Of a stretch of DNA of 64,000 nucleotides, positions 1,616-26,790 are shown one piece after another; position 1 is the first letter of the stretch, and every line of letters starts with the position of its first letter. The position numbers were made by a program, and so were the translations under genes. Location: the NCBI GenBank assembly GCA_016748015.1, contig JAAOMT010000324.1:64434-128433 (forward strand). The letters are read 5' to 3'. Origin of the DNA: Geosiphon pyriformis (lineage: Eukaryota > Glomeromycota > Glomeromycetes > Archaeosporales > Geosiphonaceae). The notes under the pieces were generated by a model. It had not been told where the DNA came from and did no database searches. It saw nothing but the letters and a program-made list of their open reading frames with translations.

Positions 1616-2791
1616 ATGATCTATATGATTCTAAAGAAATATGAACCAATTAACAGCTGTGCATTGGAATCAGAATTAATATTCAATCACAATTTAAACT
1701 CTAACAATGATAATAAAAACAATAATTCTAGCTCTATTCAAAATGGCAATAACAACAATAATGATTCGAACTCCAATTTAAACTCAGAACAGTACATTAC
1801 ACTTCTCAATCTTTTCAAGAAACAAGAGCTCAAATGGTTCAGCTATAATAATGAGGGTATCATACCAAAGCAAGTACATGATACTGATACAAGATTTAAT
1901 CTAAGATATTTAAAAAAGAATGCCATTCAATTGAAACCACATTCACATACCTGTATTGATTTAAAAATAGCACTAGAAATTTCAGCAACAACAATAGTTC
2001 AGTTAGCATCTAGGAGTAGTTTAGTGAAAAAAAAGATTAATATCAGAAGAGAAATAATTGATGCAGAATATATGGGAAATATTATTACAATACTACAAAA
2101 TGATTCAGAAAAAGCCTATATCATAGAGCCAAATAAAAAGATAGCACAGGCAATATTCCTATCTCTGGTTAAAATAGCTCAGTTAGTATTAGTGGGAAAC
2201 AGAAAAAAATTAAAAATGACAGCAAGAGAGATACAGGAATTTGAATCCATAGATGTACCAGTCAATATGGCAGAAAAAAAAATTGTTGGCAAGGAAGAAA
2301 TTATCTCTACCTGTCAATTAATTTCTATTCTGCCATATAACCAGTACATATTAGCTATAAAAAAAAGAGTAAAGAATCAAGCTCAAATTTTTGAAGTGGA
2401 AACTACTATTTGTAAATCAGGAAAAATTGGACTTACCAATTTTTACATACCAGTCAAAAGCCCAAAACATATTAAAATTCCCATCTACAATACAACAGAA
2501 GATGTTATTAAGATACCAAAAAAAACCACCATTGGATATCTAAGTGTTGAAGTTGATAATCAACCACCAAACACCATTCCAGATTTTTCACAACTTTGTG
2601 AATATGTAGACATTACATCACAAACAATATATGGACAAGAGAAATATTATTTGTTTCAACCAAAACAATTAGAACAAATGAATTTAGGAAACTTGAATTC
2701 ACTGCAACAAATACAAATCAAAATGCTACTCAGCAACTTTATTGACATCTTTGTTAGTGAAAATGAATTTGGCAGAACTGACATAATTTAA
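1616..2791 (+). pseudogene. dUTPase-like domain segment of the Pol polyprotein, element A
   Basis: Open for 391 codons, but the ATG is probably internal to the polyprotein. Residues 30-60 are a low-complexity Asn/Ser linker. Residues 89-211 fit the trimeric dUTPase fold: motif 1 remnant DTRFNL (91-96), motif 2 SRSSL (132-136), motif 3 IIDAEYMGNI (147-156) with the catalytic-position Asp149 and Tyr152, motif 4 KKIAQAI (174-180), and a damaged motif 5 REIQEFES (204-211; FGST remains in other copies). The role would be to hydrolyse dUTP to dUMP and keep uracil out of the reverse transcript. Residues after 215 are a family-specific linker that leads into RT. Motif 1 and motif 5 losses make activity doubtful here. 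Followed directly by a stop at the start of RT. Confidence 0.75.
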
Positions 2792-4075
2792 CATCAGATT
2801 AAGACTAGAAATGTAATGCCAATTAAGCAAAGAGCATACTGAGTACCACTAGCAAGCCATGAAATCATCTGACAGAAAATCAATTGGATGTTAGACAATA
2901 GATTAATTCAACTATTAATGAGTTCATGGTCTTCACCAGTTGTATTAGTTTGGAAAAAGAATGGAAAAATTCAGTTTTGTATAAATTACCAAAAACTTAA
3001 TGGAGTGACCAAGAAAGATAGCTACTCAATTCTAAAGATCCAAGAACTTTTTAATGCATTTGAAGAAAAAAAATAGTTTTTAATGCTGGACTTAGATAGC
3101 AGTAATTGGCAAATAACCATAAATCTAGCTGATAAAAAAAAGACTGTATTTACAACAAGAGAGAAAAATTTCGAGTTTGAAGTAATGCCATTTGGCTTAA
3201 TAAATGCTTTAGTAATATTCTAATGGCTTATGAAAATTGTCTATATTGGATTGTTATAGAAGTCAGTAGTTATATATTTAGATAATACCAATCTGTTCTC
3301 AAAGACATTTGATGACCATTTTCATCATCTATAACAGGTGTTTGAAAGACTGAGACAAGCAGGGCTAAAGTTAAATACTACTAAATGCTTCTTTGGTAAA
3401 ATAAAATTAAAATTTTTAAGACATGTTGTAAACAAAGACAGTATCAAAACAGATCCAAACAAAATTGAGATAGTTAAAAACTTTCCAGTATCCACCAACT
3501 TGACTGAACTATAAGCATTCTTGGAATTTACAGGTTACTACTGCCATTTCATCAAAAACTTTTTTAAACTGGCTCAGCCATTACACCAGCTTTAAACAAA
3601 AAACACCAAATATGAATAGACAGAAAACTAACAAAAAGCTTTTGATACATTAAGAAGAAAGCTTATTCAAGCTTCAATACTAATCTATTCAGATTATAGT
3701 AAGCCATTTATAATTACAATCAATACATAAGGTCAAGCATTAGGAGCTGTACTATCTTAGAAAAAACTAGATGAAAGAGAATACTCAGTAGTATATGCTA
3801 ATTGTAAGTTAAGTCCAGCTAAAAAAACTATGAAACTCCAACACTAAAACACTTAGCAATCTATTGGGCAGTTATGAAATAGAAGAAGTACTTAAGCCAG
3901 AAATTTGACATATATACTAACCATAAAAGATTAACTTCAATCCAAAAACAAAAATTTGGAGATGATCACTATGCTAGATAGAAAATAAAACTTTCACTAT
4001 TTAATTATATAGTACATTACAAAAAAAGAAAAGAAAATGGAAATGCTGACAGTTTGTTATAGATGAGACAAATTT
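2792..4075 (+). pseudogene. Reverse transcriptase and RNase H of element A (pseudogene)
   Basis: RT fingers and palm can be followed through several stops: SSPVVLVWKKNGKIQF near 2,930, catalytic motif A LDLDSS near 3,090, MPFGL near 3,190, and motif C reading YLDN near 3,270 instead of Y-x-D-D, so the second catalytic Asp is lost. LEFTGYY (about 3,520) is the connection seen in Ty3 elements. RNase H follows with DYSKPFIIT, GAVLS and TNHKRL. Stops at EWTE-type and Q positions (about 3,590-3,640) are TAG and TAA. Product would be the Pol RT-RNase H that copies element RNA into DNA. Dead copy. Confidence 0.8.
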
Positions 4076-4189: not shown

Positions 4190-5430
4190 ACAACATAAAA
4201 CAACAATCCAAATACTTTATTACTCACCAAAATATATTATATTAGAAAAACAGAAAAAATCCAGATCAACCATTCAGAGTAATCACAGAACCAAAAAAAG
4301 AAACAATACTATTCAATATGTATTCAGATCTAACAGCAAGACATTATCATAAAAAAGCAATCATAGAAAAAACCAGAAAAAAATATTATTAGTTATCTAT
4401 ATATCCAGACATCATCTAATATGTTTGAAATTGTGATACTTATCAGAAAAAAGAAGGAACAAAATCCAGTAAGCCATTGAGACTAATTAAAGTAGAATAA
4501 CCATTTGATCACATTAGAATTGACTTAGTTGGATTATTAACAATAAACAGCAGAGAAAACAGATATATAGCAGTAGTCATAGATTATCTTACTAAGTAGC
4601 CAGAAGCAAAAGCCATTCAAAGAGCAGATGCAGAATCTATTGCCAAATTTGTTCATCAAGATTTGATTTATTAACATGAATGCCCAAAAAAATTACTATT
4701 CAACCAAAAAACTCACTTTGTGAATAGAACATTAGCAAAATTAAATTAAAGATTTGGAATAAAAAGACCATTATTATCACCATATCATCCACAAACCAAT
4801 GGCTTAGTTAAAAGATTTAATAGAACATTGTGTGAAACAATTGCCAAAATTAGCCAAGAAAATCAAGATGAATGAGATTTGTTTATACTATCAGTATTAT
4901 TTGCTTATTAGATAATAAAGCAAAACACTACACAAGCAACACCATTTGAATTAGTATATGGTAGAACAGCAACATTACCAATAGAAATAAAAGTCAGCAT
5001 ATATTCACCTAAACCAATAACAGAAAACAATTTCCAAGAAACATTGTTGAAAAGAACATATGACTTAATAGAAACACTAGAAAACAAACAGCAAAGAGCA
5101 GTTGATAATATTCAAAAGTCACAAGAAAAACAAAAAAAAAGACATGATAACCAACTACTAGATAAACCAGTTGAATTTAGAATTGGAGACAAAATACTTT
5201 TACATCATACCAAAGTAAAAAAACAATGGAGTGAAAAATTCGACTCCAAATAAGATAAACTATTTCACATAGAAGAAATTTTAAGAAATAGAGCTTATAA
5301 ATTAAGATGAAACAACAAAATCTTAATCAAAGCAGCATATGGTGATTGATTGAAACCATATTATCATATAGTATTATCATTTATCAATAATATTTCACAA
5401 TTGGAAGTACAAAGAATACTAGTCTAACCA
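4190..5430 (+). pseudogene. Integrase of element A (pseudogene)
   Basis: The N-terminal HHCC zinc module (YSDLTARHYH ... CDTY) has its last Cys changed to Tyr. The catalytic core follows: IDLVG (first Asp) near 4,520, VVIDYLTK near 4,580, FNQKTHFVN near 4,700 where the second catalytic Asp of SDQ-type motifs is Asn, and KRFNRTLCE near 4,810 with the Glu. The C-terminal part, 5,044-5,253, is open and carries KKRHDN and FRIGDKILL, typical of the integrase tail. It would insert element cDNA into chromosomes. Multiple Trp/Gln stops and the Asp loss make it inactive. Confidence 0.8.
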
Positions 5431-5439
5431 GATAAAATT

Positions 5440-6205
5440 CCACAAGATCTGGAACCAATCATAATCATTGAACTGAACATGTCAAATTGAACAACCAAAA
5501 AAGTATATAAAGACACAATATATGCAACAAAAGCAACAAAGAAAATAAAAATACCAGATCATATTTACATCTTAGTGCAACAATTGTTTCAGGTCTTAAG
5601 TTAATAGCAATTAAACATAGAAATTGTTATTAATCACCAAACAATCTGTTATTGAAACACCAAACAAAAAGGAAAAAGTACACCATATCAACGACCACAG
5701 AAACAATCAATAAACTAATCAGATAAAATAGTAGAGAAAGTAAAGAACACTTTTGAAAAAATATTCATCATGGTTCTAACAAAAGAATTTTCAAAAAAAA
5801 ATTGGAAGCAATAGACAAAACAACTCCCAATACCATACTGCTACTATCAATTGGGACAAAAATTGAACATTTAGAAATTATATTTTGATAAAGCCAAAAG
5901 AATATTCAATCAAGAAATAATACAGAAAATTGAAAATATTATCAGAAAAAAACAAATATAACACTACACATTAAAACAATCTATTGACTATACAAGATAT
6001 TTCAAAATTACTCAGAAATACTGTTACACTCTAACATGAAAACAATTATTATTAATCAATAAGAAAGAATAAACAATATGCAAATCAAAGATATAAAAAA
6101 CAAAGTTGAACAAACAGTATGAGAAAAAGAAGTATTAAACTTAATTCAAAGTGAAAATTTTGATAGAGCTTAATATTAAAAAAAGAGAAGATAATATTAC
6201 TTATA
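5440..6205 (+). pseudogene. Third ORF downstream of integrase, element A (pseudogene)
   Basis: Downstream of integrase the sequence still codes in patches: a segment with LVQQLFQVL near 5,570, LPIPYCYYQLGQKL near 5,825, and a C-terminus around RAQYQK near 6,165, followed by GAAGATAATATTAC. The same segments recur in order at 7,032-7,845 and, more weakly, at 36,720-37,640, always after pol and before an LTR. It corresponds in place to the intact 235-codon ORF of element D at 14,134-14,841. No signal peptide or membrane helix is visible, so I would not call it env. Function unknown. Confidence 0.55.
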
Positions 6206-7031
6206 AAAAAAACGTATAAAGAAAATAGTAAAAAAACAGATAAATCAATAGGAAAGTAGTAATTAACACGTAAGCACATTGCTCAGCAATGTAATGTTAG
6301 AAAATTAAAGCACATTGCTTAGCAATATAAGCATTGCTCAAGAAATTATAGCACATTGCTTGGGAATATAAGCAATCTTGTAAAACCTAAATTATATATA
6401 TATAGCAAGAGCATTAGAAACAGAAAAAACAGAATTATTACTAAGATCTTCCTACTATCAAATATTTATTAGAATTATTAATATCAATAAATAATTATTT
6501 ATTATCTAAATCACTCTTTCCACTATCAACACTTTATGTTAATAGTATCAAATACTTGATCATGCTAGAACAATAGCTCTTGATCATGGCTATTAACAAG
6601 ATACTAACTTTATTGACTTGGCTTACATTTTATTTCTTTAATTTTCTTTTGTATTTTATTTTCTTTTGTTGTTTACTAATTGATTAAGGATTAAGCACTG
6701 AATTATTAATATCAAGAATAGCTTAATAAAAGATCTAGCAATAAGAGTAAAACTTTAATATATATTAATGGATAGCTTACCAAAAAGGCATAACTGCCAG
6801 AATGAACCAGCCACTATACTAAAGACAAAAATTGGGAAAACTACTTAGAAGACACTATAAATATTAGTCATTGAATCTCTGTCTATTATACAAAAAACTC
6901 TATCCAAAACCTTCAGATCACAAAACCTTCAGATAACCAATACTTTCAGATAATACCAATTATATCAGTCATTAAGCACCAAGTTATAAGTTTGTTATTT
7001 GATTTGAAATCCCAAATAATCATCTGTAACA
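6206..7031 (+). repeat. 3' LTR of element A (left boundary uncertain)
   Basis: The right end CATCTGTAACA (7,021-7,031) matches the end of LTR G on the other strand (CACTTGTAACA). Shared blocks between the two include the TATA region, a GATCTTCC/GATCTTTTAG stretch, TAACAAGATACTAAC and the CCAAGTTAT segment near the end. The TATA-like run TATATATATA is at about 6,392-6,404, just after a palindrome block. I could not fix the left end: no clear TGTTA terminus is preserved, so 6,206 is an estimate from where coding similarity stops. Confidence 0.65.
6274..6376 (+). repeat. Tandem quasi-palindromes in U3 of LTR A
   Basis: Four degenerate copies of a unit with the core GCACATTGCTCAGCAATG, of which CATTGCTCAGCAATG is a perfect 15-base palindrome. 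They lie about 20 bases before the TATA-like run. Likely a cis-acting (enhancer or structure) block of the LTR; the role is inferred from position only. Confidence 0.75.
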
Positions 7032-7845
7032 ACATGCAGCAAATTAAATTAAGAAATTCAAAATATATATAACATCTGAAAAGCAGCAAGAAATGATAAA
7101 ACTTTCAACATAGACCTGTCAGATCAAATTCTACAACTTTTAAAACAACTATTTGATACAATTCAACAATCATTTGCTCAAATAGAAGTAACAATTGATA
7201 AAAAAGAAATACAATATAAAGATAAAACAAAAAAAGAGAGGACAAGAATTCAACTAAAACTAACCAGTCTCATTCCTATCCAATGCCTAAGAAAGGAAAT
7301 TGAAGAAAAAATTTCTCTTGGATAGGACAGGAAATAAAAAAAGTTTATAAAAGATACTTGGTCTTTAAGCTCAAAAAAATTAAAGAAGCTTTAGCTCATG
7401 GGATCAAACTCTCCAAAACAGGGAAATAGACACTTAACAATACCCAGGAATGGAAAGAAAGACTTCCTCCAGCATATTGGTTCTACAAATTAGTGAACAA
7501 CTAGATTTGAAGACACCATATAAAGACTTTAGCCAGAAAACTTTTAACAAAGAAACAATACAACAAATGGAAAAATTCGTAAGAAAAAGCAATTTAATTC
7601 TACATTACAAAGCAGCATACTGACTATATGTTACTTTCTAATATTGTCCAAATGTACTGTTGTATGAATCTATAAAGATTATAACAGTTAACAACATAGA
7701 ACAAATAACCAATCAACAGTTTGAAGACCTATAAAAACAATACTTGATGCAATCATCAAACATTACATAAATAAAGTCATAATAACAGATACATACAATT
7801 TTGCAGGAGCTCAATTCTAAAAAAAAAGAAATAATATTACCCAAG
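7032..7845 (+). pseudogene. Third ORF of a second Ty3 copy (element I), fragment
   Basis: Patches of coding sequence homologous to 5,440-6,205: LKQLFDTIQQSFAQ near 7,140, LPPAYWFYKLVNN near 7,465, and a C-terminus near 7,810-7,845 with the same AACAATATTAC-type end. It starts right after the end of LTR A and runs into a U3 palindrome block, so it is the 3' end of another element, into or beside which A landed. Broken by stops at Trp/Gln positions (for example the TAG after GCAG near 7,320). Confidence 0.5.
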
Positions 7846-8217
7846 TAGAAAAACTAATCCAAAGTTATAAAGAAACATGACCAAAACATAACATAATACA
7901 AAATAGCATACAATAATATTAGATAATACGTTATAACTTAAGATAATACAGGATAATATGTTATAACATAGGATAACACAGAATAACATGTAATAATACC
8001 AGATAATATATTATAACAGAGGATAACTAAGAATAACATAAAAGAATAAAGCAATAACAGAAATAGCAAAACAATAATTAGCAATAACAAAACAATCAAA
8101 AACAATCCTGTAAAACCAAAAAAATATATAAAAGCAAGTAGTTGCAGAAATTAGAAAAAGACATCTTGATACAAACCACTAGACAAAAATCAAATATTCT
8201 TACACCTTTCATCATTT
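7840..8217 (+). repeat. Left arm of a large inverted repeat (LTR U3 of element I)
   Basis: This arm begins in the last codons of the third ORF, holds a repeat block built on GATAATATGTTATAAC, then TATATAAAAGC (about 8,128) and the stretch ending CAAATATTCTTAC. Its reverse complement is found at 8,246-8,632 with a spacer of about 28 bases, and many positions differ only by transitions. It is the U3 and start of R of an LTR of the A/G type. Confidence 0.85.
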
Positions 8218-8245
8218 ATTTTAGAAGATGAATATAGAATAAAAT

Positions 8246-8632
8246 AAATAATAAAAGGGGTAAGAATATTTGATTTTTGTCTAGTAGTTTGTATCTAGAT
8301 GTCTTTTTCTAACTTCTGCAACTACTTGCTTTTATATATTCTTTTGGTTTTATAGGATTGCTTTTGATTGTTTTGTTATTGCTAACTATTGCTTTGCTAT
8401 TTCTGTTATTGCTTCATTCTTCTATGTTATTCTTAGTTATTCTCTGTTATAATATGTATCTGGTATTATTACATATTATTCTGTATTATCCCATGTTATA
8501 ATGCATTATTCTGCATTATCCTAAGTTATAATGTATTATCCAACATTATTGCATGCTATTTTGTGTTATGTCACATTTTGGTTACCTTTTTTCATAACTT
8601 TGGATCAGTTTTTCTACTTGGATAATAGTATG
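8246..8632 (-). repeat. Right arm of the large inverted repeat
   Basis: Reverse complement of 7,840-8,217: the order on this strand reads CAAGTAGAAAAACTGATCC, GTTATAAC repeats, a poly-purine TATA region and CAAATATTCTTAC. The arm ends at about 8,632 where it abuts the RNase H remnant of element B without an integrase, so the junction is a rearrangement or deletion rather than an intact element end. Confidence 0.85.
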
Positions 8633-13190: not shown

Positions 13191-14153
13191 TGTTATTGGA
13201 GGTTTTTGGTCTCTTTTCTTGAATGTTGTTAATGCTTGTCTGTTGCTAATTTCACGTTTTCTGGAAGCAGTTGAATCTCCAATAACCGAATTTATTTTCA
13301 AATTATCTTCTGTAATCTGAACTGCTGGGCTTATAAGTGGAATGGCCAATTCCGTGCCAGTTACTTTGTGTAGTTATGTTGTAGTAAATGTCAACTCTTT
13401 CTCAGGAATTGCTTGCCTAGAAGCTCACTAAAAATGTGTAGTTACTTTGCTGTGAAAGTCAACTCTTCTACAGAAATCTTGTCTGTAGGCTACCCTAATG
13501 ATTATGATAAGAAAAAGTAAAAGAAAAATAAAGAAATATAAAAGAAAATAGAATTGTCAAGAAAAACGTTTTCTATTCAGGCCTGGAATCACTAACAGTT
13601 TATTGAAATTGGTAGCTAATCAATTTCAAAATGTTAGTTTGTGTTGAGGGAATTTCAAGTGTAATAATTAAAGGATTTGGTTTTCGAATATTTAATTTTT
13701 ATTTGAAATATGTAAAAAATGATTTGTTCCAATTAAGATATCTGAAGTAAAATACTATGTTATGCTACTATAAGAAAATACATTTTCTTGAAGAGAGAAG
13801 CTCTTCTTTTATACAACTTGTTGTAGTACTAGTTTTTGAACTTGCACTTTTCTCTTTGCTATAATTTGGGTAAACTAAAGATATATTTTGGCAAATTACA
13901 AGTTATTTCACTGAACTATTGATTATTTCGGCCAATTTTCATTAATTTCGGCGAATTTTGACTATGTTAAATGGTTCAGGGTATTGTGTAATTTGATCAT
14001 TTTAATTTCTATAGTATAAATCGGATTATTGATTGAGTAATAATATTTGATATTTTATTAAATAATAAATGATAATCGAAATAATGCTAATTAATAATAG
14101 GAATTATGAGGGTAATTTCATGCTAATTAATAGCTAAGATTCTACTGGTAACA
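13191..14153 (-). repeat. 3' LTR of element D, complete (963 bp)
   Basis: On the minus strand it begins TGTTACCAGTAG at 14,153 and ends CCAATAACA at 13,191, giving the short inverted termini expected of an LTR (TGTTA / TAACA). It is homologous along its whole length to the two LTRs of element C and to that of F. It holds TTCGGCGAATT-type repeats (about 13,880-13,970), a TATA box and a pyrimidine-rich tract. It is the least decayed of the C-type LTRs here: it keeps TGTTACC where both C LTRs have TATTACC. Confidence 0.88.
13806..13813 (-). promoter_or_regulatory. TATA box of the element D LTR
   Basis: TATAAAAG on the minus strand, just downstream of the GGCCGAAAT repeats. Aligned positions in the C LTRs read TATATAAG (16,943) and TATAAAAA (25,938), so the site is conserved. 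Confidence 0.75.
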
Positions 14154-14841
14154 TAATCTTCTCCTCAAGACTGAGCTCTGTCAAAGTCCAAGCACTATCT
14201 GTGATGTCAAGATAGTAGTCCAAAATAATTGAAGTGATTTGGTCTGAAAATTGTTGAAATTTCAGTTCTGTAAGCTTTCCAATGTATTGAATCTTTATTA
14301 GATAAAGTATTGAATTTTGTAGGATGTTTTCACAAGTGTTGAATAATTCATAAAGTCTAAATACTGCTCTAAGTTTGTAATGGGTGTTTATTGGTCCAGC
14401 TGCTGTTTTGAATTCATTGTGAATTTGTTTTTGTATAGTCTCAGGAGTAATGTTGGTTGCTTCAAGTTCCAGTTTTCGTTCATAAAGTGTTTTTCTAATA
14501 TGAAAATATCTATATATAAGAGTATGTTTATTGTTCTGTTCATTAAAAAATAGTAGAAGTTTTTGTTGAATTGTGGCATTTGGTGGAATGTCAATAGGGG
14601 CAGATAAAAAGTTTTCTTTTAGTGCTTGCTTCAAAAGTTCTGGTAATTGATTTCCAGAATAACTTTTTGTTTTTCTTCTATAGGGGTGATAATTCTGAGA
14701 ATTATTTACTACTGGTGTTGTAGTTTCTTTTTGAGTGTAATTAATTTGACTTCCATTAATCGTTATAGATAGGTCAGGAAGTGTTTTCAAAGCTAACATT
14801 AATTTTTGGGATATCTGTTGAATATTTCGGAGAATAATCAT
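14134..14841 (-). CDS. Third ORF (post-integrase) of element D, intact, 235 aa
   Basis: An uninterrupted ORF between integrase and the 3' LTR. It is predicted to be soluble and mostly helical: no signal peptide, no membrane segment. Recognisable blocks are MLALKTLPDLSITING (15-30), YHPYRRKTKS (about 52-61), LPELLKQALKENF (about 66-78), a Lys/Glu-rich helix near ERKLELEATN, and a C-terminus SLEEKIMLPVES. The last codons contain the polypurine tract, and the stop TAG lies about 20 bases inside the LTR. A homolog with few stops sits at the same place in element C (24,930-25,625), and diverged relatives follow integrase in A, I and E. Position recalls env, but nothing in the protein supports an envelope. 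It may be a duplicated gag-like or accessory protein; I do not recognise it. Confidence 0.75.
   Translation of the reverse strand: MIILRNIQQISQKLMLALKTLPDLSITINGSQINYTQKETTTPVVNNSQNYHPYRRKTKSYSGNQLPELLKQALKENFLSAPIDIPPNATIQQKLLLFFNEQNNKHTLIYRYFHIRKTLYERKLELEATNITPETIQKQIHNEFKTAAGPINTHYKLRAVFRLYELFNTCENILQNSILYLIKIQYIGKLTELKFQQFSDQITSIILDYYLDITDSAWTLTELSLEEKIMLPVES
14157..14166 (-). promoter_or_regulatory. Polypurine tract of element D
   Basis: GAGGAGAAGA on the minus strand ends three bases before the LTR start TGTTACC. It would prime plus-strand DNA synthesis. It lies inside the third ORF, coding for EEK. Confidence 0.65.
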
Positions 14842-14989
14842 AGTAAAAGTAATTAACTACTAATAAAGAAAATTATTTTTGAGTATGAGATTTTATTTGT
14901 TTTTGGGTTTGAATGTTTTTTGTAATTATTTACTATTTTTGTTTTATGTTTTGTGTATTTTTAAAAGGATTATTATAAAAATGTTAAAT

Positions 14990-16365
14990 TAAGTGTTCAA
15001 GTTTGGTTGTTGTTCTATTATAACTATTGGTTCTAAATTTTGGGAAATATTTTTAGGATTAATTAAAGAGGAATGTGTACCAATTTGTGAAATTAATGGT
15101 TTAGAATTGTTTCTGAAATAATAATGTTTTAATTGATCTCCATTTGCAACTTTTGCTAGTACTTTGCTATTAAGTTTTAACTTGTATAATCTATTGCCTA
15201 GAATTTCGTAAATATAAAATGGTTTATTCTATTTATGTTCAAATTTTTTACTCTATTGTTTTCAGCTTTAGTTCTGTGTAATAGAACTTTATTTCCAATT
15301 TTAAATTCATTGGTGATTGGTAGCAGTTTGTTGTCATGTCTTTCTTTTTGTAAGGCTTGGAAGTATTCAATATGAGAGACTGCTATGTGTTTTTTTTCTT
15401 TCAATGTATTAAGGAAAGTATAGGCTTTTTTTTGGAGTGTTTTTTAAAAGTTTTCTTTATTGATTGGTTGTACTGGGTATGTTTTTACTGTGAAATTAAT
15501 TGGTAGTGTTGCTGTCCTTCCATAAGTAAAATCAAATGATATGTGTTTTGTAGTATTCTGTTTTAGTGTTCTGTAGGCTAATAATACTGATGAAATAAAA
15601 ATATCTCATTCCTGCTCAAAATCTGTTGAGACTTTGGCTAAAGATTCACACAATTTTCTGTTAAAACATTCTACAAATCTATTTGTTTGGGGATAATAAG
15701 GTAATGATAAAGATCTTTTAACATTAAATTATTCACAAATTTTTTGTATTAAGTTGGTCACAAAATGTGTTTCTTGATCAGATAAAAGTTCAATTGGGCA
15801 TCTATGTCTACAAATAATGTCTTCATAGATAAAATTTGCTACTAATTTTGCATCTGCTCTTTGGATGGTTTTAGCTTCAAGCCATTTGGTAAGATAATCT
15901 ACTGCAACTGCAATATAACGATTTCCTTGGGTTGTAATAGATAATGGTCCAACTAAATCAATTTCAACTCTGTCAAAAAGTTGTCCAACTTTGATTGGAT
16001 TTAAAAGTTCTGTGGAGCAAGTTCCTTCTCTTCTTTAACAACTATCACAAGATTCTACATATTATATAATGTTTTTTTGCATGTGGAACCAAAAATAATG
16101 TTCAAGAGTTCTTTGGATTGTTTCATCTCTTCCCAAGTGTGCTAAAGAAAGATCTGTGTACATGTTGTATAAAATTGTTTTTTTTTTGTTTTCTTGTACT
16201 AATCTAAATAGTTGGTTTAGATTTCTGTGATTTTTGTAATAAATTTTGTTGTGGTGTATGAAATATTGTTTGGATTGATGTGGTAATCAATGTTTTTTAC
16301 TTGGAGACCAATTTTTTAGCATGGTAAGAATCTCTAAATAATTTTTGATGTTATTGTGGATTGAA
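14990..16365 (-). pseudogene. Integrase of element D, few disruptions
   Basis: From 16,365 down the frame is open over long stretches. HHCC module: TDLSLAHLGRDETIQRTLEH ... CDSC. Catalytic core: EIDLVGPLSITTQGN (Asp 1), AVDYLTKW, LLSDQETHFV (Asp 2), and FNRKLCESLAK (Glu). All three DDE residues are visible. The C-terminal part with KERHDNKLL and FKIGNKVLLHRTKAE ends near 15,200. Disruptions are few: TAA in place of Gln/Cys-context codons near 16,035 and TAA/TGA near 15,730 and 15,620. RNase H and all upstream parts are missing because the sequence switches at 16,366-16,374 to the arm of foldback element K. Confidence 0.8.
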
Positions 16366-16591: not shown

Positions 16592-16942
16592 TATTACCAG
16601 TAGAATTTTAGCTATTAATTAGCATGAAATTATTCTCATAATTTCTATTATTAATTAGCATATAACATTATCATTTCAATTATCACTTATTATTTAACCA
16701 AATTATCAAATATTATTATTCAATTAATAACTCGATTTGTACTATAAAAATTAAGATGATCAAATTACACAATACCCTGAACCAGTTAATATAGTCAAAA
16801 TTGGCCGAAATTGATAAAAATTGGCCAAAATAATCAATAGTTTGTAGAAATAACTTGTAGTTTGCCAAAATATATCTTTAGTTCGCCAAAATTAGAACAA
16901 AGAGAAAAGTACAAGTTTAAAGACTAGTACTACAACAAGTTG

Positions 16943-16950
16943 TATATAAG
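16943..16950 (+). promoter_or_regulatory. TATA box of the 5' LTR of element C
   Basis: TATATAAG, aligned with TATAAAAG in the D LTR. It would position transcription of the genomic RNA. Confidence 0.7.
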
Positions 16951-17205
16951 AAGAGCTTTTTTTTTCAAGAAAATGTATCATTTCATAATATTTTACCATA
17001 GTATTTTACTTTAGATATCTTAATTAGAACAAATTATCTTTTATATATCTCAAATAAAAATTAAATATTCAAAAACCAAATCCTTTGATTATTACACTTG
17101 AAATTTTCTCAACACAACTAACATTTTGAAATTGATTAGCTACCAATTTCAGTAATCTGTTAGTGACTTCAGGATAAAAAACGTTTCTTTTGTTAGAATT
17201 CTATT

Positions 17206-17212
17206 TTTTTTG

Positions 17213-17257
<45 letters not shown>

Positions 17258-17313
17258 NNNNNNNNNNNNNNNNNNNNNNNNNNNNNNNNNNNNNNNNNNN
17301 NNNNNNNNNNNNN

Positions 17314-17346
<33 letters not shown>
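17206..17346. other. Poly-T tract with a 56-base N gap inside the C LTR
   Basis: A poly-T run precedes the N run at 17,258-17,313 and a second poly-T of 33 follows it. The same spot in the D LTR and the 3' LTR is a mixed C/T tract of about 50 bases (CTTTTCTTT type). The assembly gap therefore falls in a homopolymer; its true length is unknown. Confidence 0.9.
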
Positions 17347-17348
<2 letters not shown>

Positions 17349-17666
17349 TATAATTATTAGGGTAGCCTACAGACAAGATTTCTGTAGAAAAGTTGACTTT
17401 CACAGCAAAGTAACTAGACATTTTTAGTAAGTTTTCAGATGAGCAATTTTTAGAAAAAAGTTGACATTTACTACAATGTAACTACATAAAGTAATTGGTA
17501 AGGAATTGGTCATTTCACTTATAAGTCCAGCAGTTCAAATTATAGGAGATAATTTGAAAATAAATTCAGTTATTAGAAGTTTAACTGTTTTCAGAAAACG
17601 TAAAATTAGCAACAGACAAACATTAACAGCATTCAAAAAAAGAGACCAAAAACCTTTGGTAACATT

Positions 17667-17682
17667 TGGTGTTCTCTCATAG
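17667..17682 (+). promoter_or_regulatory. Candidate primer-binding site of element C
   Basis: TGGTGTTCTCTCATAG starts two bases after the LTR end. Starting with TGG fits pairing with a tRNA 3' CCA end. The same place in element F (minus strand, near 50,195) reads TGGTATTCTTTC, so the site is conserved. The tRNA was not identified. Confidence 0.6.
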
Positions 17683-17689
17683 AAATAAC

Positions 17690-19213
17690 ACAGCAATAAC
17701 AAAATTCAAAGTGGTGACCACATCAGACACAACAATTCTAAAATATTATTAGTTAATTTACACTTACTGCAAGCAAAGATTCAACATCCAAGACGGAATT
17801 GAAATTTTCAAGAAATCACTATACCAATATATTGAAAACTGTATTAACAATTATTTTTTTGAAAACTACAACATTTCAAAAATTAGAAACAACCTCTACA
17901 ATAATTTATTGCACTATTTACGATTGGAAACAGAAGACCTGAACAATGAAACACTTGGCATCTATTTCCAAGAACTTAACTTTAACATTATTCAGTATTG
18001 TAAAGAAAAATACTTAGTACAAGCCAAATACTCTCTTGACTTTGAATCAGAAACAGAAACAAACAACAAAAGCAACCAAAAAATGAAACAATACTCAAAA
18101 ACTACTTCAAACACTCCAAGTACACCAAAAATAACTGTCAAACACTTGCAAACTCTAGAACAAGAAATCAGCACCAAACTTTCACTCTCAGTTATCTCAT
18201 TTCTAATTTTACTTGCTCAACCACAAACACCAAATTCACTACTTATCTATTTCTCAAGACTAGAAAATTTTCAGTTACCTAAAAGTCTTATTGAACAACA
18301 AAAACCCATATCAACCAACACCAATATTATTAATTACTTACAAAAAAATGAAAATAATTATTTAGAGAACTTGGAAAGTGAAAAAACTAAATCAAAACAA
18401 GAAGAAACCACAAAAAATAAAAAATAAATAGCAACTGCTTACATTGCAAAGATTCCGGAATTTACTGGTAAAGATAATGATACTAGTTCACAAGAATGGC
18501 TTGACAAAGTTCAGAAAGCAGGAGATGCAAATAGATAGAATGCAGCAAGAATGCTTAAAACAATCCCATACTTTCTCCAAGAAACAGCAGAAAAATGGTT
18601 TGAAAACTTGGATGCACCCTTTAAAAACTGGCAAGCATTCAAAAATGTTTTTTTACAACAATTTACTGACAACAACACATCTATTACTCTCCAAAATTGG
18701 TTCTGAAATATCAAACAAGAACCAAGTAAATTAGTTATAATTTACTTAGAAAAGTTCAACAAACTTCTCAGAAAAATTTGCCAGTTGAAAACCAATGAAT
18801 ACTATTTTAATACCCAAATTTTGGATTAATTTATCACTAGATTAAAAGATAAACTTATAAAAAAAGTGTGTCTACATTTACCTGAAGATTTGGTCACTGC
18901 TATTTAACATATAAAGAACTATAAAATGGCTATAAAAAAAGCCAACTACACAAAACTTGTGAATCTTGTCATTGGAGAAACCAGCTCAGCAGCTGAAAAA
19001 AATTGACCAACTCATAAAAAAAATTGAAAACTATTTCACCAACCAACAACAGCAACAACAAATGCAAAGATATTAGCCACCATAATAACAAAACCAAAAC
19101 AACTACTCTTTATTATCCAACAATCAATCACAAAACTGTTACTATTGTGGGATTTTAGGACATTGGAAACAAAACTGCAGAAAGCTACAAAGAGACCAAT
19201 AAAACAGGAGTAA
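17690..19213 (+). pseudogene. Gag of element C (pseudogene with intact CCHC zinc knuckle)
   Basis: Coding starts near 17,690; 17,909-18,427 is fully open. A conserved core follows: IPEFTGKDNDTSSQEWLDKV, AEKWFENLDAPFKNWQAF and LQQFTDN, which fit the retrotransposon gag (Ty3-type capsid) family. Stops at 18,425 (TAA), about 18,536 (TAG, R*NAA) and 18,704 (TGA, WF*NI) are at Gln/Trp-type positions. An A-run near 18,995 shifts the frame. The tail has a Gln-rich stretch and one zinc knuckle CYYCGILGHWKQNC (19,137-19,178), C-x2-C-x4-H-x4-C. Gag would form the particle and bind the RNA. Confidence 0.8.
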
Positions 19214-20270
19214 TTAATGTTACTTTTCAACACAGCAATCTCATTATCAGTCTCCACTACCAGCCTACTATTCCTTAAAATTTCAACAGCAAAGCAATTA
19301 CTATTAACCTGTTTCACAGCAGCAATATCAACAACTTCTACCAATTCAACAATATCAACAACCACCTACACAACAATATTAAGTACCAGTCCACAGATTG
19401 GTTCAATAAAGCCAATTCACATCTTAAAATCAATTCAAAATAATAACAACAGAATCAATCCAAACAACCAGTTAGTTCCCTAAAATTCTGATTAGCAAAG
19501 ACCCAATCATTATTACACTCAACCCAGTTATTTTACAATGCCAAAAGAATCGAATTTTCAACAAACTGCACTTTTTGAAGGTGAAACTGCAACACCAAAA
19601 TCAAACTCTTCCAACAATATTATTCCATCAGCCCAAATTGCTCAAAATACCAATCTTTCAGACATATTTCCATTTAAATTCGAAGCAAATAAATTACCAT
19701 TCTTGCTTAGCAATGCAGCAGTTAATGAACAGAAAGCAATTACAGCAATATATACTGAAGCTAAAGTAGAAGAGAAACCAATTCAGTTAATTTTGGATAG
19801 TAGATTAGCTGAAAGTATTATCACCTACCAATTAATACAACAGTTTTAAAGAACTGTTAACAGACCAGTTCAAACTGTAATTATTATAGCTAATGGCATG
19901 AAGAAAACCCCAGTAGAAAAAATTGACAACTTCTCATTTATCATTAATGGAATCACCATTCCAGTCAAAATTCTAGTTATGAATGCACCCCAATACCAAG
20001 CTTTTGTCAAAAATAATTGGCTTCTCAAAGCCAATGCAAATTTAGATCGAAAAATCCAAAAATTGAAAATTTTATACCAAGAACAATACACCAGAGTACC
20101 TATTACTTGTGATATTTTTAATAAAAAATTTGAAAAAGCCCAGTATTCGAATTTGAAGAGAATAAAGAATTACCAATCATTAAAACCTTTATGGCTCTTG
20201 GATTACCATCCAATTGGGCTAAGGAAACAAAACAAAAAAGCTTTAAAGAAATCAAAAGATAGAATATAGT
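19214..20270 (+). pseudogene. Gln-rich linker and retropepsin-like protease of element C (pseudogene)
   Basis: 19,214-19,530 is a Gln/Pro/Tyr-rich linker in a shifted frame. Protease lies at about 19,675-20,090: LILDSRLAESIIT carries the catalytic Asp, but the Gly of D-S-G is Arg; then TVIIIANGMKKTPVEK, FSFIINGITIPVKILV and NNWLLKANANLD, the second half of the fold. The TAA at 19,847 (QQF*RTV) breaks the frame. It continues open to 20,269. Would process the polyprotein. Confidence 0.72.
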
Positions 20271-20900
20271 TAGATATTCTACACCAGAACTATGGAAACA
20301 ACCACCTTACATTTTACTTAAATACAAAGATTGTAAAAAAAAACTTTTATCAATAGAAGTATGTATTTTTCTAAAAGAGAAATATGAAACTCACATTTGC
20401 TACTTTTGCAAAGCATGTCATAGAGAATTATTTGGATATTTCAAAAGAAGCAGAAAATGAAACAACACTCCTTGTCTTATATGTGGAAATATGCTACCAG
20501 AAAAATGCAACTGGATTGATGTTGTAATGAAAGGAGAAGTATGTGATCAAACCTGTCAATATGCTCTATTAATCTCGAAAAAAGTCAGAAGAAAAACTCT
20601 TTTTGATGCAACATACAACAGTGCTCTCAACAAATTATATCACTATTTTCATAATGTTAAAATAATCTTTGACTTAATAATGGCTTTAATCAATAGAGCC
20701 ACACAGAAAAATGTCCACCAAATAAAAAAAGCTAAGTATATTGAGTACACAATGGAATTAACTAAATTCAATTATGAAGATGAAGTGGAAACATACCACC
20801 AAATCACAAGTTATGTCTATTCAACCAAAAAAGCTCAAATTCAATGATTAGAACAAATGAACATTCAACTACATAAAAAATGTACCATGCTTTGTAATGA
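20271..20900 (+). pseudogene. Cys-rich zinc-ribbon-like module of element C (pseudogene)
   Basis: Pairs CYFCKAC near 20,397, CLICGNM near 20,475 and CDQTCQY near 20,545 give C-x2-C spacings that could hold zinc. The frame is open at 20,491-20,847 (118 codons) through a helical segment FDATYNSALNKLYHYFHN that is also present in B and F. One TGA at a Trp position (RK*NN) lies near 20,457. Always between protease and dUTPase. Its job is unknown to me; it may help bind nucleic acid. Confidence 0.6.
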
Positions 20901-21039
20901 CTAATAATGTCCAGAATATTATGCAATTAGCATTTCTCTGCCCAACAAAAATAATAAATATGAATTTAAATTTGAAAAACCTGAAAAAAAAAATTTGCAA
21001 CAACACCAATCTATCTTACTAAGAATCAACCAGCCTTAT

Positions 21040-21905
21040 AACTCAAATATTTCAACAACAATAAGCAAGGAATCAAGCCAGAAAAAGCCCATGATATAGA
21101 TGCTAAATATAATTTACAATATCTAGGAAAAGATACTTTGATCTTCTAACTAAAATCTTTAACAAAAATCAACCTTAAAATTGCTCTCAAAATTCTACCA
21201 AGAGTAATGGTTCAAATTGCTTCTCAATTATTTCTAGCCAGTAAAAAAATCAACATTAAAAGAATAGTTATAGATTCAGGATACACTGGAAACATTACTG
21301 TCATGCTACAAAATAAAATTGAGCAATTATTCAAAATAAAACATGATGAAAAAATTGCTCAAGCAATTTACCTACTCTTAATCAACATTTCAGGTTTATA
21401 ATCAGTAAACAACAGAGAACAATTAGGAAAAAGTGAAAGAGAAACTCAAGATTTTGGTTCAACTGGACGATTTACAGTTCCAGTAAACATAACTCTTAAT
21501 ATGTAAAGTGAATTTTACCAGATTTTACAACTTCTCCAACCAATTATCATTTTACCTTTTGAAGAACATCACAAAATTTACACTTGCTCAAAACTCACTA
21601 CTACTCAACAAATTTTTGAATTCAATAAACAAATCTGTTTAAAGCATGAAATTTCAATTTCAAATGTTTATATTCCAAAAGGAGTAAAAAAATTTCGAGT
21701 TATATTTTACAACCCCAATAAATACCCTATTGTCTTATTAAATAAATTAAAAATTGGAATCATACATAGCAACATTTTTCAAGATGAAAACTTTCAAATT
21801 GTTTCTAATTTCATCGAAATTGTAAGATATACTCTACTTTCCAACTCAAATATTATTGCTACTACTAAAAACTACCATCTTTTAGAAAAAAACTTTCTTG
21901 AATCA
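21040..21905 (+). pseudogene. dUTPase domain of element C (pseudogene)
   Basis: Motif 1 region reads ARDIDAKYNLQYL-like near 21,090. Motif 2 (SRSSL in A) is SQLFLASK here near 21,222. Motif 3, VIDSGYTGNITVMLQN near 21,265, keeps the catalytic-position Asp and the Tyr. Motif 4 is EKIAQAI near 21,350. Motif 5, DFGSTGRF near 21,450, is almost canonical. Stops: TAA at 21,148 and 21,400 and TAA at 21,504. Between them this copy and B show that the family once had a complete dUTPase. It would lower dUTP during reverse transcription. Confidence 0.78.
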
Positions 21906-23325
21906 ACATGGGTCTCTTAGAATCTCAACAACAAAAACAATTAAAACAGTTAATAGCTGAATTTACTGATATATTTGCAAAAGACAACAATGATCTTAGA
22001 AAAACTAATATTGTTCAACATTAGATTCACACAGGCAATGCTTCACTAAAATGTCAACAAGCTTATCAAGTACCACCTGCCAGCCACCAATTTATTAGGG
22101 AAGAAGTTTAGAAAATGCTCAATAATAAATTGATTCAATCATCAAAAAGTCCTTGGGCCTTATCAGTGGTTCTTATTAAAAAGAAAAACGGAAAAATCAG
22201 ATTCTGTGTAGATTATCATCAGCTCAACAGCATGACAATTAGAAATGTCTATTCTTTTCCAAGAATTGATAACATGCTAAATGCTCTAGGAAAAGCCAAG
22301 TTTTTCTCAACTTTAAACTTGGAAAGTGGATACTGGCAAGTCGAAATAGACCCAAAAAATCAACCCAAAACAGTATTTACCCACCAAAGAAGAAACTATG
22401 AGTTTAATGTTATGTCTTTTAGACTCTGCAATACACTAGCAACATTCCAATGACTCATGGATGTTGTATATAAAGAACTTTTATGGCAATTAGTAGTTGT
22501 TTATCTTAATGACACTAATATGTACTTACCAAGTTTTGAAGCTTATCTTATTCACCTGTAAAAAGTTTTTTAACAATTACAGAAAGCAGGATTAAAATTA
22601 AACATTGAAAAGTGTTACTTTGGAAAACCAAGTTTAATCTTTTTTGAACACATTGTTAGCAAAGATGGAGTCAAACCAAATTCTGGAACAATTAGTGCTG
22701 TCAAAAACTTTTAAACTTTTAAAAATACCACAGAACTATAAAGATTTGTAGGATTAGCCTCCTACTATCGAAAATTCATAAAAAGATTCTTAGAAATTGC
22801 CAAACTACTTAATTATCTTACCAACAAAAATGTGTTATATCAATGAACTAAAAAACAGCAAAGAGTTTTTGAAACCCTCAAAACAAAATTAACAACAGTC
22901 CCAGTTTTTGTTTATTCAAACTTCAACAAACAATTTTAACTAATCACAGATGTTTTACATACAGCATTTGGTGTTATTTTATTACAATTGGATAAAAATG
23001 GCCAGGAACAAGTTATTGTCTATGCCAGTAGAACACTTAAACTAACAGAACTCAAATATGGCTTAACTGAATTAGGAGCTGCTGCAGTTATTTGGGCTTT
23101 TAAACACTTTTAACAATACTTGAAGAATAGAAAAGAATTTGATATCATAATTGACAATATTGGCTTCAAATGGCTTAATAAAAAGAAAACAAAACAAAGC
23201 GCCAAACAGTCTCAATGAAATGATTTTCTAGCAGATTATAAATATATTGTACACTACAAACTAAAAAACCACACACCAATGTTAATAGTCTCTCAAGAAT
23301 GAAACAAGATTAACACCAACAACAA
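21906..23325 (+). pseudogene. Reverse transcriptase and RNase H of element C (pseudogene)
   Basis: 22,115-22,453 is open and carries KKKNGKIRFCVDYHQLN, the motif A region STLNLESGYWQVEID (catalytic Asp of LDL now Asn) and YEFNVMSFRLCN. Motif C is VVYLNDTN near 22,505: the first Asp of Y-x-D-D is Asn. FVGLASYYRKFI near 22,750 is the Ty3-type connection. RNase H: NKQF*LITDVLHTAFG near 22,930, VIVYASRTL near 23,010, and LTELGAAAVIWAFKHF near 23,065. Stops are TAA/TGA/TAG at Gln/Trp sites. Inactive. Confidence 0.82.
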
Positions 23326-24746
23326 TTCTACCACAACTTACTACTATTAACAAAATAATAAAACAACAATAAATTCCAGAAATTACAACAATCTTAAAAA
23401 CTATTTGAAAACTCTTATCATGCCAGAAAATTGGTCTTCAAGTGAAAATTATTGATTACAATACCAATCAAAACAATATTTTATATACCACAACAAAATT
23501 TATTATAAAAATTGCAGAAATCCAAACCAACCACTTAAATTAGTACAAGAAAATAAAAAAGAAACAATTCTATACAATATGTACACAAATCTTTCTTTAG
23601 CACACTTGGGAAGAGATAAAACAATTCAAAGAATCTTTGAACATTATTTTTGACTTCACATGCAAAAAAACATTTGACAATATGTAGAATTTTGTAATAG
23701 TTGTTAAAAAAAAGAAGGAACTTGTCCCACAGAATCTTTAAATCCAAACAAAATTAGACAACTTTTTGACAGAGTTAGAATTGATTTAGTCGAACCATTA
23801 TCTATCACAATCTAAGAAAATTGTTATATTGCAGTTGTAGTAGATTATCTTACTAAATAGTCTGAAGCTAGAGCCATCTAAAGAGCAGATGCAAAATCAG
23901 TAACAAATTTCATCTATAAAGACATTATTTGTAAACATAAATGTCTAATTGAACTTTTATCTGATCAAGAAACACATTTTGTGAACAACTTAATACAAAA
24001 AATTTGTGAATAATTTAATGTTAAAAGACCTCTATTATTACCTTATTACCCCCAAACAAATAGACTTGTAAAACGTTTTAACAGAACATTGTGTGAATCA
24101 TTAGCCAAAGTCTCAACTAATTTTGAGCAAAAATAGGATATATTTATTTCATCAGTATTATTAGTATACAGAACACTAAAACAAGATACTATAAAACACA
24201 TATCATTTAATTTTATCTATGGAAAAACAGCAATATTACCAATTAATTTCACAGTAGAAACATACTCAGTGCAACCAATTAATGAAAAAAACTTTCAAGA
24301 AACACTCCAAAGAAAAGCTTACACTCTTTTTAGTACATTAAAAAGAAAAAAAACACATAGCAGCCACTTATATTGAACACTTTTAAGCTTAACAAAAAGA
24401 AAGGCATGACAACAAACTGCCATTAATTACCAATGAATTTAAAGTTGAAAACAAAGTTTTCTTACACAAAACTAAGGCTGAAAAACAATGGAGTGGAAAA
24501 TTTAAACATAAATAAAATGGACCATTTTATATTCATAAAATTTTAGGCAAAAGATCATACAAGTTAAAATTTGATAACAAAATACTAGCAAAAGTTGCAC
24601 ATGGAGATTGATTGAAACACTATTATTCCAGAAACAATTCTGAACTATTAATTCCACAAATTGATACACATTCTCCTTTAATTAATTCTAAAAATATTCC
24701 CCAAAATTTAGAACCAATAGTTATAATAGAACAACAACCAAACTAG
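23326..24746 (+). pseudogene. Integrase of element C (pseudogene)
   Basis: HHCC module with LAHLGRDKTIQRIFEH and CNSC near 23,600-23,700. Core: RIDLVEPLSIT near 23,785 (Asp 1), VVDYLTK*SEARAI near 23,845 with Trp as TAG, LLSDQETHFVNN near 23,955 (Asp 2), KRFNRTLCESLAK near 24,075 (Glu). C-terminal tail with ERKAWQQTA-type and FKVENKVFLHKTKAEKQW near 24,440. Disrupted by several stops. The DDE residues survive, unlike in A. Confidence 0.8.
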
Positions 24747-24929
24747 AACACTTAATTTAACATTTTATAATAACTTCTTTAAAATAAACAAAACATAAAA
24801 CAAAAATAGTAAATAATTACAAAAAACATTCAAACCCAAAAACAAATAAAATCCCATACCCAAAAATAATTTTCATTATTCTTTTTCAAAATTTTGTTTA
24901 TTAATTAGTTATTTTTATCATGATTATTT

Positions 24930-25625
24930 TTCGAAATATCTAACAAATATTCCAAAAATTAATGTTAGCCTTAAAAACACTTCTTGACTTATCTATAATG
25001 ATTAATGGAAGTCAAATTAATTACATTCAAAAAAAAACTACAATACCAGTAGTAAATTATTCTCAGAATTATCACCCTTATAGAAGAAATACAAGAAATT
25101 GTTTTGGAATTCAGTTACCAGAACTTTTAAAGCAAGCACTAAAAGAAAACCTTTTATTTGCTTCTATTGACATTCCACCAAATGTCACAATCCAACAAAA
25201 ACTTTTACTATTTTTTAATAAACAAAACAATGAACATATCTTGATTCATAGATATTTTCATATTGAAAAAACACTATATAAACGAAAACTGGAACTTGAA
25301 GCAAAAAACATCACTTCTGAAGCTATACAAAAACAAATTCACAATGAATTTAAGACAGCAGCCAGATCAACAAACACTTGCTACAAACTTAGAGCAGTCT
25401 TTAGACTCTATGATTTATTTAACACTTGTAAAAACGTTTTACAAAATCCAATACTTTATTCAATAAAGATTTAATACATTGAAAAACTCACAGAACTAAA
25501 ATTTTAACAATTTTTAGACCAAATCATTTCAATTATCTTGGACCACTATTTTGACATTACAAATAGTGCTTGGACTTTGACAGAGCTCAGTTTTTAGGAG
25601 GAGATTATATTACCAGTAAAATTTT
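24930..25625 (+). pseudogene. Third ORF (post-integrase) of element C
   Basis: 24,962-25,472 is open for 170 codons. With the part past the TAA at 25,472 (IKI*YIEKL, a Gln site) it matches the 235-residue ORF of D along its length: LALKTLLDLSIMINGSQINY, YHPYRRNTRN, LPELLKQALKEN, and the end ILPVKF followed by TAG inside the LTR. Further stops (25,506 TAA, 25,596 TAG) are again at Gln or Glu/Leu-context positions. Separate from gag, which is at the 5' end of the same element. Confidence 0.7.
25596..25604 (+). promoter_or_regulatory. Polypurine tract of element C
   Basis: AGGAGGAGA just before the 3' LTR (25,608), aligned with GAGGAGAAGA of element D. Confidence 0.6.
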
Positions 25626-26558
25626 AGCTATTAATTAGCATAAAATTAACCTCATAATTTTTATTATTAATTAACATAAATTATTATCATTTCAATTATC
25701 ACTTATTATTTAATCAAACTATCAAATATTATCATTTAATTAATAACTCAATTTGTACTATAAAAATTAAAATGATCAAATTACACAATACTCTGAACCA
25801 GTTAATATAGTCAAAATTTGCCAAAATTAATAAAAATTGGCCGAAATAATCAATAGTTTGTAGAAATAACTTGTAGTTTGCCAAAATTAGAGCAAAAAGA
25901 AAAGTGCAAGTTTAAAGACTAGTACTACAACAAGTTGTATAAAAAAAGAGCTTTTTTTTTCAAGAAAATATATCATTTCATAGTATCTTATCATAGTATT
26001 TTACTTTAGATATCTTAATTAGAACAAATCATTTTTTACACATTTCAAATAAAAATTAAATATTCAAAAACCAAATCCTTTGATTATTACATTTGAAATT
26101 CCATCAACACAATTAACATTTTAAAATTAATTAGCTACCAATTTCAGTAATCTGTTAGTGACTCCAGGCCTGAATAGAAAACGTTTCTCTTGTTAGAATT
26201 CTATTTTTTTACTTTTCTTTTCTTTTTTCTTTCTTTTCTTATTATAATTATTAAGGTAGTCTACAAACAAGATTTCTGTAGAAGAGTTGACTTTTACAGC
26301 AAAGTAACTACACATTTTTAGCAAGCTTTCAGATGAGCAATTCCTGAGAAAAAGTTGACATTTACTACAACATAACTACATAAAGTAACTGGCAAAGAAT
26401 TGGCTATTCTACTTATAAGCTTAACAGTTCAAATTATAGGAGATAATTTGAAGATAAATTTAGTTATTGGAGGTTTAACTGCTTTCAGAAAACGTGAAAT
26501 TAGCAACAAACAAACATTAACAGCATTCAAAAAAAAAGACTAAAAACCTTCAGTAACA
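25608..26558 (+). repeat. 3' LTR of element C (951 bp)
   Basis: Starts TATTACCAGTA, ends CTTCAGTAACA. TATA-like TATAAAAA at 25,938-25,945. It keeps the pyrimidine tract as mixed C/T (26,200-26,240), without the poly-T expansion of the 5' LTR. Differences from the 5' LTR are mostly transitions plus a short deletion before the TATA box (the ATATATCTTTAGTTCGCC unit is absent). Confidence 0.88.
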
Positions 26559-26790
26559 TTGATATTTCTTAGAATCAATAACAAATATTATTGTGCTTTT
26601 TAATTGTTTCTTTATTCAATGAATCACAAAAACAAGCAATCATTTCTCATGCTAATTCTAACAAATACAAATCAAGAAGAGGAAAAGATAAGATATGTGA
26701 ATGCCAACAAGTAATCTTTTATTCTAAGATGTTCAGATACTTGAAAGTAGAGAAAAAGAAATAAGCAATATGAAAGGAAATAATTAATAT

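Follow-up and report, generated by a model that had tools for sequence, protein, structure and literature searches.

A third gene between integrase and the 3′ LTR of Ty3-type retrotransposons in Geosiphon pyriformis

An additional open reading frame, here called ORF3, lies between integrase and the 3′ LTR of a group of Ty3-type elements of Geosiphon pyriformis. With a probability of about 95%, ORF3 is a real third gene of this group, which is maintained since replicating elements need it. It is regarded as a maintained gene because its protein sequence is under constraint, its place behind pol is conserved and it is spread over many copies. The window, i.e. the whole stretch of DNA that was analysed, has a length of 64,000 nucleotides. 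The copy in its element D is intact, and element D itself is a 3′ fragment consisting of integrase, ORF3 and LTR, with integrase located upstream of ORF3 on the same strand. The following features of element D were located:

15112-16061, minus strand: integrase of D (tblastn)
14857-14880, minus strand: candidate 3′ splice site, a stretch rich in pyrimidines whose terminal TAG lies immediately upstream of the ORF3 start codon
14134-14841, minus strand: ORF3 of D, 235 aa, ATG start, intact
14154-14166 (approximate limits), minus strand: polypurine tract (PPT), in frame within ORF3, seen in 20 loci
13199-14153 (about), minus strand: 3′ LTR of D, which includes the ORF3 stop and the codons immediately before it, located via the LTR match of locus L009

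The stop-free frame of 235 codons described in the original prediction was confirmed at 14134-14841 and could be assigned to the minus strand, which had not been given before. The limits of the 3′ LTR were obtained by mapping positions 5815-6769 (element orientation) of L009 back onto the window. Since this LTR reaches to about 14153, the ORF3 stop codon (14134-14136) is located 18-20 nt inside it. The purine run GAGGAGAAGATTA adjoins the LTR and is translated in frame as part of ORF3, and in all 20 fetched loci an in-frame purine run precedes the LTR and the last codons of ORF3 enter it. The proposed position of the stop inside the LTR and of the PPT inside the coding sequence was thereby borne out for the D family by LTR mapping, with an overlap of about 6 codons plus the stop that was mapped in this family only. 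Among the D-family matches the open frame often has 240 codons and is thus hardly longer than ORF3 itself, which places an in-frame stop just before the ATG.

For the anatomy of the host elements 20 loci around stop-free ORF3 copies were fetched and upstream pieces were added for 4 of them. The LTRs have a length of about 972 bp and the ends TGTTACC...GGTAACA (piece-to-piece comparison), and four full-length elements span about 9.8-11.4 kb by coordinates. The sequence TTTGGTGCTC.. directly after the 5′ LTR is a putative PBS, and a 4-bp target duplication is readable by eye in 3 of 5 elements. In Pfam searches L010 was found to contain a gag with zinc knuckle, L022 and L027 matched integrase, and L011 matched a protease (1008-1565, weak and below the cut-off), a dUTPase (2607-3776) and RNase H (4309-4782), while the integrase of L011 was located at 5256-6062 by tblastn. 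Judged by the pol order of protease, RT/RNase H and integrase, with RT placed via RNase H, and by the LTR hallmarks, the host elements can be assigned to the Ty3/Gypsy elements. A dUTPase in pol was also seen in the window at 1616-2791, between the protease region and RNase H.

Several side observations were made in these loci. The dUTPase ORF of L011 also matches a spumavirus-type protease model, located behind the dUTPase. In L010 a stop codon (6067-6069, element orientation) lies between the gag frame and the zinc-knuckle frame directly after it. In L010 and L029-L032 the 5′ LTR is directly followed by about 200 codons of conserved, coding-like sequence (TLEYYQSIYTHCKQRF...) in frame with gag; this sequence lacks an ATG before an internal MATAYIAK, which would imply a non-ATG start or a spliced-in ATG exon. 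L010 (G000:C403:270500-280400) is a pol-less element of the form LTR-gag-ORF3-LTR with a length of about 4.76 kb and LTRs that are 99.6% identical. In the E-type loci L042, L046 and L047 the open frame of ORF3 extends about 112 codons further upstream and overlaps the end of integrase in another frame.

The window contains further copies of ORF3, all of them on the plus strand:

4420-5364, plus strand: integrase before the A-type ORF3 (tblastn)
5545-6176, plus strand: A-type ORF3, decayed (tblastn)
7110-7817, plus strand: E-type ORF3, decayed (tblastn)
16592-17666, plus strand: 5′ LTR of C (LTR comparison)
17665-19611 (about), plus strand: gag region of C, mapped from L009 and matching the corresponding region of L010 at 75%
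23678-24632, plus strand: integrase of C (tblastn)
24920-25621, plus strand: ORF3 of C, interrupted by in-frame stops, 79% identity with D (sequence comparison)
25608-26560, plus strand: 3′ LTR of C (LTR comparison)
35797-36688, plus strand: integrase before a further diverged ORF3 (tblastn)
37338-37574, plus strand: remnant of the diverged ORF3 (tblastn)

Element C spans about 16592-26560, has LTRs of about 88% identity and is apparently full-length. The homolog of ORF3 that had been reported for it is present, but due to its in-frame stops this copy is broken; the claim that C has its own gag agrees with the gag region listed above. The diverged relatives in the window had been described as always following integrase, which holds, with integrase of the same type, for the copies at 5545-6176 and 37338-37574 but not for the one at 7110-7817, just before which no integrase was detected by tblastn of the window. 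Directly after the latter remnant an imperfect self-complementary palindrome of about 800 bp with 88% identity was observed (7831-8631). Elsewhere in the window an inverted pair of elements of about 6.8 kb (28947-35707 and 42267-49035, 76% identical, RNase H ORFs at 29099-31063 and 47278-48255) perhaps represents a LINE-like family.

Genome searches with four queries (two D sub-families, A-type and E-type) yielded at least 150 ORF3 matches each, the best 150 being scored from first-look pools of 2559 (D sub-family 1), 2335 (D sub-family 2), 2687 (A) and 840 (E) matches. The match lists of the two D sub-families share no entries. By hand count, 58 of the 150 best D-query genome matches are stop-free and, because the frame is also under constraint, ORF3 is more than a chance reading frame.

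The position behind integrase is conserved as well. Integrase was found upstream of ORF3 in 18 of 20 D-family loci, the exceptions being L010, in which pol is deleted, and L019, which is masked there. Among the best 150 D-type integrase matches at least 72 have an ORF3 downstream on the same strand among the ORF3 matches listed, at a distance of 113-183 nt in 71 cases and of 496 nt in one, and none of the listed ORF3 copies is located on the opposite strand within 1.5 kb of these 150 integrase matches. Due to the fact that the ORF3 matches listed are the best 150 per query, the other 78 integrase matches were not counted as absences; ORF3 was present in both of the two that were sampled. Of 17 A/E-type loci 15 have a detected integrase, and in each of these 15 the distance from the end of the integrase match to the ORF3 start is 176-181 nt, three of the starts being derived from matches that begin inside ORF3 or in a fragment. 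The expectation that ORF3 follows integrase in most full-length elements thus encountered no absence that speaks against it (at least 72 of 150, plus the two sampled). The elements carry a sense ORF after pol in most copies, 'most' resting on this sample, and this is what characterizes an aORF-3S. In all four copies inspected pol closes with its own stop before ORF3, which together with the gap of 113-183 nt (71 of 72) speaks against ORF3 being a C-terminal extension of integrase.

With a two-sequence target, BLASTP relates the ORF3 proteins of the D types to that of the A type over about 210 aa (E values 1.3e-5 and 3e-7); the E-type protein shares 29% identity with the A-type protein in an alignment of 235 columns. 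On these alignments ORF3 of the D, A and E types is the same gene in all families. Between the D and E types ORF3 is about 25% identical over 101 aa, compared with 62-67% over 72-77 aa for the ends of integrase, the D integrase peptide in this comparison being a blended query; by this measure ORF3 diverges faster than integrase.

Selection on ORF3 was assessed by pairwise dN/dS according to Nei-Gojobori in 24 copies of D sub-family 1 (22 stop-free, 2 with stops) and 6 copies of sub-family 2 (all stop-free), the loci mostly having been picked as stop-free. The median was 0.26 within sub-family 1 (276 pairs, range 0.14-2.04), 0.285 within sub-family 2 (15 pairs) and 0.227 between the sub-families (144 pairs, range 0.16-0.29). 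Neutral simulations gave means of 0.70-1.11 (lowest single run 0.24) and, with stops rejected, of 0.64-0.73 (lowest run 0.29). The differences within sub-family 1 are distributed over codon positions 1, 2 and 3 as 5752, 4032 and 10236. For a comparison with pol the same 16 loci were used and pairs with dS ≤0.05 or fewer than 80 codons were dropped; dN/dS was 0.29 for ORF3, 0.21 for RT-RNase H, 0.41 for the dUTPase region and 0.58 for integrase. The constraint on ORF3 therefore resembles that on pol, being near that on RT-RNase H and tighter than that on the dUTPase region and integrase. That ORF3 contains zero stops in this set results from the choice of loci. With pN/pS below 1 in every block, the constraint is spread over the whole frame and not only the tail; it peaks in codons 161-230 and is most relaxed in the linker, codons 41-80 (0.45, 0.52). 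As a side observation, the synonymous divergence of integrase was about half of that of ORF3 and RT-RNase H (0.157 vs about 0.30-0.32; 16 loci of L011-L028), perhaps as a result of recombination between the sub-families.

The youngest changes have a different pattern. In the closest pairs dN is similar to or above dS (e.g. L002/L010, dS 0.006, dN 0.011), and the private changes of single copies, pooled for the 23 copies other than D, comprise 16 synonymous and 39 non-synonymous changes (0.66) plus 3 stops; the D copy has only five private changes, 4 synonymous and 1 non-synonymous. The latter numbers lean towards constraint on D, as would be seen in a gene domesticated by the host, but so few changes carry little weight for domestication of this copy. 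Near-neutral private changes suggest that selection acts through transposition, the unit of selection being the moving element, because inserted copies escape selection (dead on arrival). A dN/dS near 1 among young copies had been named as a result that would speak against the gene. Literally this applies to the youngest copies, but the deeper medians of 0.23-0.29 contrast with neutral means of 0.64-1.11, and since young copies are expected to be near neutral, the test as worded is unsuited and the idea of a gene survives.

The product of ORF3 has 211-244 aa across the types and a pI of 8.9-9.7 in five of six proteins and of 7.1 in the other. AlphaFold models were generated for the D type (54 sequences, pLDDT 48.6, pTM 0.34) and the E type (39 sequences, pLDDT 61.6, pTM 0.36), and both show a helix at the N-terminus, a beta-hairpin, a linker of low confidence and further helices. 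Accordingly, the predicted protein begins with the helix and the hairpin, continues with a variable, basic linker and ends in a helical part. Structure prediction, as had been recommended for this product, thus yielded a shared secondary-structure outline, but the models are poor; therefore the fold is not nameable and the negative Foldseek result (two models against PDB, one against viral models, nothing at E ≤0.001) carries little weight. Pfam searches with the D copy and seven members gave no match above the curated cut-off, including no env and no gag, and no significant match was obtained in PHROGs or in PDB by sequence or by profile. A scan of IMG/VR returned 96 pattern matches and 0 relatives. 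In one protein-database search the 120 matches listed among 208 are all from Geosiphon or the window's own, and in two further searches 40 of 40 and 56 of 56 are from Geosiphon. No relative of ORF3 was thus detected outside Geosiphon by searches that need shared 5-residue words, for which reason relatives in other glomeromycotan fungi may be missed. The statement that no named family is known for ORF3 holds within Pfam, PDB, PHROGs and the viral-fold searches. No membrane helix fits any of six proteins, whose highest 19-residue Kyte-Doolittle means are 0.44-1.07, as had been anticipated. A profile comparison with the N-terminal region of Gag was empty (E 0.42). A displaced or duplicate gag was rejected, in line with the original prediction, given the separate gag behind the 5′ LTR, the lack of a Pfam gag match and this profile comparison.

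The position of ORF3 bears on its expression. ORF3 follows the stop of pol at a distance of mostly 113-183 nt and would be read from a shorter message, most likely a spliced one in which a leader from the LTR is joined to an acceptor immediately upstream of the ORF3 start codon. According to one study, spliced messages are the typical source of ORF3 products in LTR elements (PMC5408684). In 19 of 20 D-family loci a YAG lies within 30 nt of the ORF3 ATG, with a mean pyrimidine fraction of 0.76 vs 0.41 further upstream. The LTR has a conserved TATA at position 353 and, in 19 of 20 3′ LTRs, a donor-like GTRAG at position 735; 28% of LTR windows equal or beat the conservation of the donor hexamer. 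No pyrimidine tract was seen before ORF3 in the 10 A/E-type loci inspected. These signals hint weakly at a spliced message, which may be D-specific, the hint being weak because donor conservation is commonplace and the A/E-type loci are without a tract.

As to the function, we tentatively consider ORF3 to be an accessory protein that handles the RNA of the element and is made from a spliced message, a possibility drawn from its position, the presumed message and analogy. Without enzymatic activity of its own, it would act in trans on the unspliced RNA or the Gag of the element, in a manner like that of CERV, which serves genomic RNA export in the nematode Ty3-type element Cer1. An export signal as the means of this was discarded, since the motif is no commoner in ORF3 than in shuffles: export-signal motifs occur in 0.64-0.78 of shuffles of D-type proteins, and neither the A nor the E proteins contain the strict form of the motif. 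The further-reaching proposal, that fungal Ty3 elements have evolved a nef/CERV-like regulatory gene with a novel fold and a spliced message, which governs RNA export or packaging and whose frame runs through the PPT into the LTR, appears unlikely. It is also rather unlikely that ORF3 is a structural partner of Gag, i.e. a matrix-like or assembly protein packaged in the particle. A small, mostly basic, predicted helical protein that diverges fast and is yet constrained would suit this role, as would the pol-less L010 with its nearly identical LTRs, which keeps gag and ORF3; however, the profile comparison with the N-terminal region of Gag found nothing, and L010 is a single copy whose deletion may postdate insertion. 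Among 40 genome matches only one, L010 itself, crosses the deletion junction, and due to this unique junction the element was dropped as proof that ORF3 is needed.

An antagonist of host silencing or of another host defence, with the fast divergence reflecting an arms race, is doubtful. The rapid divergence between families relative to integrase and the loosest constraint in the linker would agree with it, whereas pN/pS below 1 in every block gives no sign of positive selection and no Pfam match to known proteins was obtained. A degenerate or unusual env-like gene is very improbable: ORF3 shares the sense strand and the place between pol and the 3′ LTR with env and env-like ORFs (PMC7264820), but the low hydropathy maxima and the missing Pfam env match argue against it, as the original prediction had held. 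Hardly any credence is given to the explanation that no protein matters, the sequence being conserved because of signals at the RNA or DNA level (PPT, LTR end) or the ORF being fortuitous; although the last codons overlap the PPT and the LTR, the excess of third-position differences and the constraint over the whole frame oppose this.

ORF3 as an accessory gene of the element touches on a wider question, since such genes are commonly regarded as typical of retroviruses. A symbiotic fungus here harbours hundreds of ORF3 copies under constraint comparable to that on pol, and they offer a testable case of a cell-bound element gaining and keeping a regulatory gene. Many of its copies are annotated as 'hypothetical proteins' in Geosiphon, which may mislead gene counts. 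In the literature covered, which excludes most subscription journals and preprints, no paper on the ORF3 gene was found, nor any description of a conserved, sense, non-env gene of known function after pol in fungal Ty3 elements.

Lentiviral nef and MMTV sag are accessory genes that overlap the 3′ LTR at their end, with the PPT inside the coding sequence. ORF3 has this nef-type layout, in that its coding sequence spans the PPT and enters the 3′ LTR; the likeness is one of layout and applies to the D family, and in contrast to nef and sag the overlap is just about 6 codons plus the stop. Genes after pol are a known kind, and the ORF3 protein itself is without a match in the searches made. LTR retrotransposons are already known to carry extra sense ORFs in the interval from pol to the 3′ LTR (aORF-3S), and ORF3 resembles these in place, strand, many copies and absence of an assigned function; the sense ORFs described have been likened to env, and transmembrane domains occur in some of them, whereas ORF3 has none and its frame ends inside the LTR (PMC7264820). 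In fungi, brtn of the Botrytis element Boty is likewise an additional gene of an LTR element, although brtn is antisense and ORF3 is sense (PMC8365987, PMC7264820). Fungal Gypsy elements have been described with a dUTPase between protease and RT and an 'add. ORF' without an assigned function in a figure legend; the latter can be compared with ORF3 by description, the survey comprising 25 species with 0 glomeromycotan ones (PMC2864245). The TRP28 ORFs of plant Retand elements are also conserved, located between pol and the 3′ LTR and without an assigned function, but differ from ORF3 in being antisense, of plant origin and equipped with a TRP28 domain (PMC11963269). Like ORF3, the ORF3s of bdelloid rotifers are third genes in dUTPase-bearing LTR elements that were gained by lineages; they are env-like, a GDSL esterase, a DEDDy exonuclease or small TM/CC proteins, while the Geosiphon ORF3 has no Pfam match (PMC5408684). 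In C. elegans, the export of Cer1 genomic RNA requires CERV, which is made from a spliced transcript (PMC10309623). CERV has 517 aa and exons shared with gag, unlike ORF3 with about 235 aa and its own ATG; compared by description, both are lineage-specific, non-env genes after pol, and the role proposed for ORF3 likewise concerns RNA (PMC10309623).
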